64,000 nt of DNA from Chromobacterium sphagni (GTDB lineage: Bacteria > Pseudomonadota > Gammaproteobacteria > Burkholderiales > Chromobacteriaceae): contig NZ_MKCT01000001.1 in NCBI RefSeq assembly GCF_001855555.1, forward strand, positions 1,205,625 through 1,269,624, written 5' to 3'. Position numbers and translations under genes: made by a program. The notes under the pieces were generated by a model that saw only the letters and a program-made list of their open reading frames with translations, did not search any database and had not been told where the DNA came from. Below are positions 7,009 through 14,412 of the stretch, in pieces. Within the stretch, counting starts at the first letter, position 1; every line of letters begins with the position of its first letter.

Positions 7009-7359
7009 ATGCTGCCTGCCAAAATGGTTACCACCACTTTCGATCTGCCCGGCTACCGGGTGACGGCCAATCTGGGGGTGGTGCGCGGCATCACCGTGCG
7101 CTCGCGCTCGATTGTCGGCAATTTCTTTGGCGGCCTGCAGTCGCTGTTCGGCGGCAACATCACCATCTATACCAGCCTGTGCGAGCAGGCCCGCTCGGAA
7201 ACCTATGCGCTGATGTGCGAGCACGCGGCGGCGCTGGGCGCCAACGCGGTGATCGGCATGCGCTACGACGCCACCGACGTGATGGCGGGCTTGACCGAGG
7301 TGCTGTGCTACGGCACCGCGGTGCGGGTGGAGCCGCTGGACGCGGCTCGCCAGCTCTAG
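7009..7359 (+). CDS. YbjQ/UPF0145-like heavy-metal-binding-domain protein
   Basis: A 116-residue protein resembling the YbjQ family, which forms pentameric alpha/beta assemblies of unknown role. Typical segments are the N-terminal TTTFDLPGYRV, the GVVRGITVRSRSIVGNFF strand, and the C-terminal ALGANAVIGMRYDATDV with a final CYGTAVRVEP strand. GGAGAG upstream of the ATG supports 7009 over 6967. Its TAG stop overlaps the stop of the convergent GNAT gene on the palindrome CTAG. Confidence 0.85.
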   Translation: MLPAKMVTTTFDLPGYRVTANLGVVRGITVRSRSIVGNFFGGLQSLFGGNITIYTSLCEQARSETYALMCEHAAALGANAVIGMRYDATDVMAGLTEVLCYGTAVRVEPLDAARQL

Positions 7360-8285
7360 CCCGGAGCGGCCGTGGTCTGCAGTTCCAGTTGGTGCAGCCG
7401 CTCGGCCTGGGCGTCGCAAAACCGGATGGCGTCGCCGCGCTGGCCGCGCAGGAACAGCAGCAGCCAGCCGTCGCCGGCGTCCGGCAGCAGGCCGCCGAAG
7501 CCGAAGCCGGCCTGCCGCAGCGCGGGCAGCAGCGCCAGCGCGTCGGCGCTCAGCGCCAGCTTCAGGTAGAGCAGCTGGCCGGCGGGCAGGGTGGCGATCT
7601 CCGCCAGCCGTGCCGCGGTCGGCTGGTGGACCGTGATCTCCAGCCGCTGGCCGTGGCGGGCCAGACTCAAGCCGGGCAATCTGGCCGACGGAGCGACGGC
7701 GGCGCGCTGTCCGAAGGCCTGCTGCAGCGGCCGCAGCCATTCGCGCCATTCGGCGGGCCAGGCCAGGTCAGGCAGGGGGCGCGGCTGCAGCGGCAGGCAG
7801 CCCAGCACGATGCTTTCCGGTTCCGGCTTGCCGAACGGCGAGTCGACGTAGTCCAGCATCAGCGCGCTGGTGTGGAAGCCCAGCGTTTGCGCCACGTACT
7901 GGCTCTGCGGATGCGAGCATACCTGTTTGATGGTCAGCAGCGCGACGCCCTGCACCGCCGCGGCCGCGCGCAGATGGCGTCCCAGCAGACTGGCCACGCC
8001 CTGGCCGCGCGCGTCCGGGTGCACCACGTTCAACGCCAGTTCGGCCTGCCCCGGCCGCGCCGGGTCTTGCCACAGCGTGGCATGGCCCACCAGCCGGCCA
8101 TCCAGCAGCGCCACCGCCGAGCGCCATTGCCCGCTGGCGTTGCGTTGCTGGATCTGGCTGGGCAGATAGACGTCGGGATAGACGTAGTGGTCGCCGTAGA
8201 CGGCGCGGAACAGCGCGCTGACCGCGGCGGCGTCTTCGGCCTGGTAGTCGCGCGCCCAGGCGGAGGCGGGGTGGCGGGCGCTCAT
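7356..8285 (-). CDS. GNAT-family N-acyltransferase with C-terminal extension
   Basis: A 309-residue protein. Residues 10-145 carry a GNAT fold: the acyl-CoA-binding loop appears as HPDARGQGVASLLGRHL and is followed by a QVCSHPQSQYVAQTLGF segment. The C-terminal half is an unfamiliar 150-residue extension. It is the last gene of a five-gene minus-strand operon; its ATG overlaps the end of the PaaK-like gene (ATGA) and a GAGGAGG site lies just upstream. In this context it may acylate an amine in the product of the LuxE/LuxC/PaaK enzymes, but that is inference. Confidence 0.8.
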   Translation of the reverse strand: MSARHPASAWARDYQAEDAAAVSALFRAVYGDHYVYPDVYLPSQIQQRNASGQWRSAVALLDGRLVGHATLWQDPARPGQAELALNVVHPDARGQGVASLLGRHLRAAAAVQGVALLTIKQVCSHPQSQYVAQTLGFHTSALMLDYVDSPFGKPEPESIVLGCLPLQPRPLPDLAWPAEWREWLRPLQQAFGQRAAVAPSARLPGLSLARHGQRLEITVHQPTAARLAEIATLPAGQLLYLKLALSADALALLPALRQAGFGFGGLLPDAGDGWLLLFLRGQRGDAIRFCDAQAERLHQLELQTTAAPG

Positions 8286-13125: not shown

Positions 13126-13155
13126 TGTGACTCCGGTGTCGATGGGAAAGAGGGA

Positions 13156-14412
13156 TCAGACGGGGCTAGGCTGCGCTTGCGGCGCGCGCAGCAGCCGCCA
13201 CAGCAAAGGCGCGGCCAGCACTGCGGCCAGGCTGATGCCGGCGGCGAAGCGTTGCGGGCTGGCGCCGGCGTCCAGCCAGGCCAGCAGCGCGGCGCCGCCT
13301 CCCAGCGTCGCGGTGGACAGCATGCCCAGCATGGCGGCGACGCTGCCCTTGGCGCTGTCGCTGGCGAACAGGGTGAGCCGGTACAGCGCGGCGTTGCCCA
13401 GGCCCAGGCCGAAGGCGTAGACGGCAAGGCCGGCCACCAGCGCCGGCAGCGTCGGGTGCAGCGGAGTGAGCGCGCCGATCAGCAGCAAGCCGCAGCCCAT
13501 AGGCGCCAGCGCCAGCCGCAGCACCTCGGGCAGATTCTTGCGGCCGGCCAGCCGGTTCAGCAGCAGGTTGCCGGCGATCACGCCGCCGAATACCGGCAGC
13601 TGCCACAGGCCGTATTCCAGATTGCTGTAACCCAGCTGGCGGACCAGCAGCAGCGGCGACAGGCCTATCCAGGCGATCAGGGGCAGCGTCAGCAGGCCCA
13701 GCGCCAGGCTGCCGCACAGCACGGTGGGATGGCGCAGCAGCGCCAGGTAATTGGCCAGCGCGGCGCGCAGCCGCAGCGGCGTCGGCGGCTGCATGCTGCC
13801 GTCGCGGCGGGGAACGCCCACCGTTTCCGGCATCAGCCGCCACAGGCCCAGCGTCACCAGCAAGGTGGCGCAGCCCAGCGCGGCGAACAGTTCCCGCCAG
13901 GACAGCGCGCCCAGCAGCAGGCTGCCCAGCAGCGGCCCGGCCAGCGGCGACAGCAGCGCGATATTGGCCAACAGCGCCATCAGCCGCACCGCGTCCTCTT
14001 CGGCGAAGGTTTCCTGCAGCGCCGGGTAGCTGACCACCACGATGAAGCCCAGGCCGATGCCCTGGGCGAAGCGCAGCAGGTTGAACCATTCGATCGCCTG
14101 CGCGCCGGAGGCGGCGAAACAGGCGGCGGCGAAGCCCACGGTGCCGGCCAGCAGCAAGGGGCGGCGGCCGAAGCGGTCGGACAGCGGGCCTATCAGCCAC
14201 TGAAAGGCGACGCCGCCCAGCAGGAAGGCGTTGAAGGCGGTGGGCACGTGGCGGCTGTCGGCCCGCAGGTCCTGGGTGACGCGCAGCATGGCCGGCATCA
14301 CCATGTCGCTGGCGAGGTAGGTGAGCAGCTCGAAGGCGGTGAGCAGCAGGCAGAACAGCAAAGCCTGGCGGCGCGGGATCGCTAGCAGGGGACGGAAGGT
14401 TTCGGCGGACAT
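13156..14412 (-). CDS. MdfA-like multidrug/metabolite efflux MFS transporter
   Basis: A 418-residue, 12-span major facilitator protein. The first span AFELLTYLASDMVMPAM matches the MdfA pattern with an acidic residue in helix 1, GPLSDRFGRRP is the signature loop between helices 2 and 3, and SPLAGPLLGSLL is the antiporter motif C in helix 5. It is the first gene of the LuxE/LuxC operon, 30 bases before the LuxE-like start, so it is the likely exporter of, or self-protection against, the product. The ATG at 14412 starts directly before helix 1; an in-frame ATG at 14502 would add 30 residues without a hydrophobic feature. No strong ribosome-binding site was seen at either. Confidence 0.85.
   Translation of the reverse strand: MSAETFRPLLAIPRRQALLFCLLLTAFELLTYLASDMVMPAMLRVTQDLRADSRHVPTAFNAFLLGGVAFQWLIGPLSDRFGRRPLLLAGTVGFAAACFAASGAQAIEWFNLLRFAQGIGLGFIVVVSYPALQETFAEEDAVRLMALLANIALLSPLAGPLLGSLLLGALSWRELFAALGCATLLVTLGLWRLMPETVGVPRRDGSMQPPTPLRLRAALANYLALLRHPTVLCGSLALGLLTLPLIAWIGLSPLLLVRQLGYSNLEYGLWQLPVFGGVIAGNLLLNRLAGRKNLPEVLRLALAPMGCGLLLIGALTPLHPTLPALVAGLAVYAFGLGLGNAALYRLTLFASDSAKGSVAAMLGMLSTATLGGGAALLAWLDAGASPQRFAAGISLAAVLAAPLLWRLLRAPQAQPSPV

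Follow-up and report, generated by a model that had tools for sequence, protein, structure and literature searches.

An operon in Chromobacterium sphagni that matches the leup operon of Klebsiella and is predicted to make a leupeptin-type peptide aldehyde

The closest described relative of the operon studied here is the leup (leupeptin) operon, for which Li et al. 2020 is reportedly the primary paper. In Klebsiella michiganensis it is found as an insertion made up of a transporter gene and leupABCD, for which leupA–leupB primers are printed (available part of PMC8283571). The available part of PMC11480411 gives the products of the operon as leupeptin, a lysine analogue and derived pyrazinones, with a homoarginine pyrazinone from the Xenorhabdus and Photorhabdus operons, and describes the operon as silent in ordinary laboratory medium in K. 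oxytoca. The [M+H]+ value it lists for leupeptin is 427.3027. For Xenorhabdus bovienii SS-2004, the route consists of separate AMP-dependent ligases and a reductase (PMC11212599, in its accessible sections). The same product class, protease-inhibiting small peptide aldehydes, is also made by Streptomyces NRPS clusters (antipain, MAPI and others), and Streptomyces leupeptin is counted among NRPS products in the accessible text of PMC10548850, where the leupeptin producer S. roseus ATCC 31245 is named.

The window (the whole stretch of 64 000 nucleotides of C. sphagni DNA that was analysed) contains five tightly spaced minus-strand genes between 7356 and 14412 (Table 1), with gaps of 30, 2, 45 and −4 bases, just as a sequence-only reading of the window had described them; judging from this spacing, they probably form one transcript. 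Consensus scanning of 14350–14900 gave no sigma-70-like promoter, and no terminator was found in a scan of the same interval. The gene calls of that reading (an MdfA-like exporter, a LuxE-like protein, a LuxC-like protein, two PaaK-like modules and a GNAT protein) hold, with one correction: the LuxC-like part and one of the PaaK-like modules belong to a single fused gene. A tRNA-Pyl predicted by ARAGORN (7323–7403, plus strand) was taken as probably spurious, since it overlaps the ends of two converging genes, ybjQ and the GNAT gene, and Rfam has no match at gathering scores anywhere in the window. Elsewhere the window encodes a prolyl oligopeptidase family (S9) serine protease (22208–24241); leupeptin-type aldehydes can inhibit serine proteases of the S9-type class.

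Table 1. Coordinates of the operon genes in the window and of related or similar loci in other genomes
Feature	Sequence	Coordinates	Strand	Length
MFS transporter, MdfA-like	window	13156–14412	minus	418 aa
LuxE-like acyl-protein synthetase, leupA counterpart	window	11995–13125	minus	376 aa
LuxC–PaaK fusion, leupB counterpart	window	9590–11992	minus	800 aa
PaaK-like stand-alone ligase, leupC counterpart	window	8282–9544	minus	420 aa
GNAT protein, leupD counterpart	window	7356–8285	minus	309 aa
Second LuxC/LuxE-like locus, different from leup	G014:C1	775680–777435		
Second LuxC/LuxE-like locus, different from leup	G002:C45	114563–116333		
Second LuxC/LuxE-like locus, different from leup	G018:C67	164363–166106		
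Leup-like genes, conjugative IncF-type Salmonella plasmid	L115 (CP054717.1)	6467–12630		
Leup-like genes, conjugative IncF-type Salmonella plasmid	L128 (CP053580.1)	4539–9821		
Streptomyces plasmid set, other gene order (PaaK, MFS, GNAT, LuxE, LuxC–PaaK adjoining)	L116 (NZ_CP108162.1)	2857–10298		

The leup operon of Klebsiella michiganensis/oxytoca agrees with that of the window in its five genes, their order and their strand, but lies in another genus and at another chromosomal site. In K. michiganensis DSM 25444, the matches to the window's proteins have identities of 69% (LuxE), 53% (fusion), 56% (PaaK), 46% (GNAT) and 56% (MFS). Both published leupA/leupB primers (available part of PMC8283571) match this locus with zero mismatches, and their product has the published length of 1,235 bp; it runs from inside the LuxE gene into the LuxC–PaaK gene, and therefore leupA is the LuxE-like gene and leupB is the LuxC–PaaK fusion. 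That leupC is the PaaK-like gene, leupD the GNAT gene and the transporter the MFS gene follows from the gene order and from the description in the same available text. The leupA counterpart directly precedes the leupB counterpart in the window as well (the 2-base gap). The leup operons of Photorhabdus and X. bovienii share the four biosynthetic genes and their order with the window, with identities of 79–80% for LuxE and 64–66% for the fusion; unlike the window, however, the loci seen have no adjoining MFS gene. The X. bovienii strain compared here is T228 (SS-2004 in print), and locus strains may differ from those studied. No report of a Chromobacterium leupeptin cluster or peptide-aldehyde protease inhibitor, or of a biosynthetic gene cluster with LuxC and LuxE acyl-CoA reductase genes, was found in the open-licence paper collection searched, where leupeptin gene clusters turned up only in the Klebsiella paper; the Chromobacterium operon may already be listed by Li et al. 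2020.

The sequence-only reading left the product unnamed. Since the set matches a characterised leup operon, that claim no longer stands: the product is likely to be a peptide aldehyde of the leupeptin type. We put the probability at about 0.85 that the operon, matching the Klebsiella transporter and leupABCD one for one, builds such an aldehyde with stand-alone ligases and likely exports it; acetyl-Leu-Leu-argininal or a close analogue is the predicted compound. The absence of luciferase genes is then to be expected from the same match.

Matches to Pfam families and PDB structures bear out the family assignments of all five proteins. The LuxE-like protein matches Pfam LuxE (88 bits), and its Cys365, which aligns with the C-terminal cysteine of LuxE in the LuxC–LuxE complex (PDB 7xc6), is kept in 82 out of 83 aligned rows (the remaining row is a gap) and is the predicted thioester carrier. 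The fusion matches Pfam LuxC with 448 bits (residues 37–412); its Cys245 aligns with the cysteine of the QQAC motif of LuxC in PDB 7xc6 and is found in 83 out of 84 rows (again, the other row is a gap), so the LuxC-like domain does have the active cysteine that had been assigned to it. The AMP-binding family scores below the Pfam cut-off of 29.9 bits for both adenylating modules (26.7 bits at residues 448–621 of the fusion, whose adenylating domain covers residues ∼440–800, and 25 bits for the stand-alone ligase), but sequence matches to phenylacetate-CoA ligases in the PDB (e.g. 2y27 at E 3.3e-12 for the stand-alone ligase) support the PaaK assignment. A lysine is invariant in each of them (Lys791 of the fusion's adenylating domain in 84/84 aligned rows and Lys403 of the ligase in 83/83), whereas Lys472 in the phosphate-binding motif of the fusion is poorly kept (lysine in 43 out of 84 rows). 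Conservation of the key cysteines and lysines fits working enzymes; Lys472 of the fusion speaks against this. The GNAT protein matches Pfam Acetyltransf_1 with 38 bits (residues 38–137), and when the GNAT alignment was searched as a profile against solved structures, the matches covered the first half of the protein only; it is a predicted leucine N-acetyltransferase. The MFS protein matches Pfam MFS_1 with 120 bits, and scores 328 bits against the MdfA subfamily model, below its cut-off of 439.

Scanning species genomes for the fusion yielded 356 confirmed relatives, and the 80 best of these were analysed as named loci. Among these best 80 of 356, the fusion, PaaK-like and GNAT genes are on one strand and in the same order in all 80 loci, and the LuxE gene is also present in 79, so that the four biosynthetic genes do keep company in that order; in the one exception (L097), the contig starts inside the fusion gene, so the LuxE gene is cut off. 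The MFS gene is found in 49 of the 80. The 31 loci that lack it are the Photorhabdus and Xenorhabdus loci, an Enterobacteriaceae MAG (L065), a Pantoea locus (L074), a Pseudomonas locus (L090) and the cut locus L097; for L037, L048 and L065 only ∼0.6–1.3 kb of sequence lies upstream of the LuxE gene. Since the Photorhabdus and Xenorhabdus loci have no adjoining MFS gene, export through this protein is not shared by the set as a whole. When 369 genomes were drawn evenly from the class, a fusion at E 1e-100 was found in the window's own genome only, and E. coli genomes gave no near match. The fusion shares 74–82% with the named Chromobacterium relatives listed, and the LuxE gene is found in 15 out of 19 genomes of the genus (own genome included). 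In three Chromobacterium-type genomes, a second, distant LuxE-like gene (28–29%) adjoins a LuxC-like match at a site away from the leup operon (Table 1).

We built a maximum-likelihood tree of 47 fusion proteins, with the root assumed on the Streptomyces branch; the six Streptomyces-type rows make up one side of a branch (100/100). Given this root, the window falls within a Chromobacterium–Burkholderia clade (seven rows, 100/100), and X. bovienii and Photorhabdus are sister to C. haemolyticum and C. alkanivorans (six rows, 100/99). The two clades join at 92/91 (not starred), and both are inside a starred clade of 24 rows (99/97) with K. michiganensis outside. With the root so assumed, the window is bracketed by taxa reported as producers (Photorhabdus/X. 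bovienii and Klebsiella), and its operon shares ancestry with the characterised leup operons. The distance matrices of the genes agree (Mantel r 0.94–0.97 for five pairs, with 0 out of 999 permutations as high for each), as expected for genes travelling together; host kinship contributes to this agreement. Chromobacterium operons are not one clade, and Burkholderia falls among those apart from C. haemolyticum and C. alkanivorans. This interspersion with Photorhabdus, X. bovienii and Burkholderia speaks for transfer between genera of soil and genera associated with insects.

The genomic contexts of the operon differ within the genus. In C. subtsugae (L096) and C. sinusclupearum (L034), the operon is between ybjQ and the gene found at 15706–16479 in the window, as in the window itself, and the flanks are collinear; the TPR gene of the window has no match in either locus. 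Of the four genus genomes without the LuxE gene, three have no operon at this site: ybjQ and TPR matches are ∼60–70 bases apart in two of them (G008 and G017), ybjQ adjoins the 15706-type gene in the third (G012), and the stretches around the site in all three have no match to the five operon proteins. In the fourth (G011), the marker gene used found no match. The C. haemolyticum (L036) and C. alkanivorans (L108) loci lack matches to all of the flank markers, which suggests that the operon entered these species separately. Leup-like sets are also found on two conjugative Salmonella plasmids (Table 1), where they stand among recombinase and toxin–antitoxin genes; the MFS gene of L115 is reduced to a fragment of 121 a.a., and L128 has no annotated GNAT gene. 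At the far end of the window (60001–64000), the GC content drops to 45% and then 55% (62–73% elsewhere in the window); a glycosyl transferase family 4 gene sits there, and this stretch is possibly an acquired polysaccharide region.

A more distant version of the set is found in Streptomyces. The plasmid set L116 shares 56% (LuxE), 44% (fusion) and 40% (PaaK) identity with the window, while its GNAT and MFS proteins do not match those of the window at E 0.001 and are linked to them by annotation and place only. Three genes on the opposite strand, annotated as peptidase inhibitor family I36, come after this set. With the Streptomyces fusion as query, 717 out of 7991 scored proteins reached E 0.001 or better; among the best 120 of the 717, lengths range from 748 to 886 a.a. 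and the named ones are all from Streptomyces except one from Kitasatospora, and S. lavendulae and S. virginiae are among the matches listed. Unlike the NRPS clusters, the window's five proteins have no condensation or carrier-protein family (Pfam, E 0.01 or better), and the Streptomyces set is a candidate for a leupeptin route without an NRPS. Because Streptomyces has the same five gene types side by side, in shuffled order, the LuxE/LuxC discrete-ligase route might even be the original leupeptin pathway across phyla, with the Streptomyces set making classic leupeptin and the proteobacterial operons (Chromobacterium included) as horizontally spread kin, a tentative proposal to which we give somewhat less than an even chance.

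How far the product of the window could depart from leupeptin depends on the specificity of the ligases and the acetyltransferase: with either changed, the same chemistry would give a peptide aldehyde or pyrazinone that differs in its residues or its acyl cap. Known leup operons do vary at the last residue (Arg, Lys or homoarginine; available part of PMC11480411), and GNAT is the least conserved of the four biosynthetic genes, so that the acyl cap could differ from that of Klebsiella, whose GNAT is only 42% identical. However, the window stands between reported producers in the tree and keeps most of the residues common to them: out of the reference columns (those identical in X. bovienii T228, Photorhabdus L038 and K. 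michiganensis), it keeps 225/242 for LuxE, 352/395 for the fusion, 180/204 for PaaK and 98/125 for GNAT. We therefore regard another product as unlikely and retain the leupeptin-type aldehyde.

The outline of the sequence-only reading (activate acids, reduce one of them to an aldehyde, modify an amine and export the product) is a sound one on the sequence evidence, and the established chemistry of LuxC/LuxE and PaaK allows the steps to be allotted to enzymes. The GNAT protein would acetylate leucine. The PaaK-like modules, one being the stand-alone ligase and the other the C-terminal half of the fusion, would generate acyl-AMPs and close both amide bonds, attaching leucine first and then arginine. 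The LuxE-like protein would then adenylate the carboxylate of the tripeptide acid and bind the acid to Cys365 as a thioester. The acyl group would pass to Cys245 of the LuxC domain, which would reduce it with NADPH to the aldehyde, and the MFS protein would export the aldehyde. The order could be different: LuxE and LuxC may first make argininal from arginine, to which the ligases then join acetyl-Leu-Leu, and a reductase–ligase fusion would suit hand-over in either direction; but free argininal is expected to cyclise, and in old Streptomyces work it was reportedly the finished 'leupeptin acid' that was reduced, which makes the argininal-first order improbable. Reduction of the finished tripeptide acid is thus the order we prefer.

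The lux operon (luxCDABE) has the LuxC and LuxE families and their cysteines in common with the window's operon, but the latter has no adjoining luxA or luxB, its LuxC is fused to PaaK, and it has two extra ligase modules and a GNAT gene. A lux-like route to a fatty aldehyde, serving luminescence or lipid metabolism, would be in keeping with the LuxC and LuxE folds and the presence of both cysteines, but was rejected as extremely improbable, as the two proteins fail as true NCBIfam equivalogs (53.9 bits against a cut-off of 750 for LuxC and 61 against 550 for LuxE), no luciferase gene is nearby, and two PaaK modules and GNAT are constant companions among the 80 best loci. The earlier statement that luxA and luxB are missing is right for the surroundings of the operon; the sole luciferase-superfamily gene (PF00296) of the genome lies on another contig. 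For the luxD family (PF02273), the search gave no match, and its controls were also silent.

With the match to leup, an operon that read as an orphan gains a likely product and is explained by a known pathway. The set is now placed in Chromobacterium, Burkholderia, Pseudomonas and others, beyond the Klebsiella, Photorhabdus and Xenorhabdus of PMC8283571 and PMC11480411 (available parts). In Klebsiella, the presence of leup goes with respiratory isolates (14 out of 19 from lung and two out of 23 from stool; PMC11480411, accessible text). As the operon of a relative is silent in ordinary medium (K. oxytoca, same text), that of Chromobacterium may go unexpressed as well; a leupeptin-type product would block proteases. 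Should leupeptin also be the product of the Streptomyces set, the way in which the classic producers assemble it would be open to a direct test. The LuxC- and LuxE-like genes of this operon would serve a peptide-aldehyde pathway and not light production, and genes annotated as LuxC or LuxE can flag such pathways.
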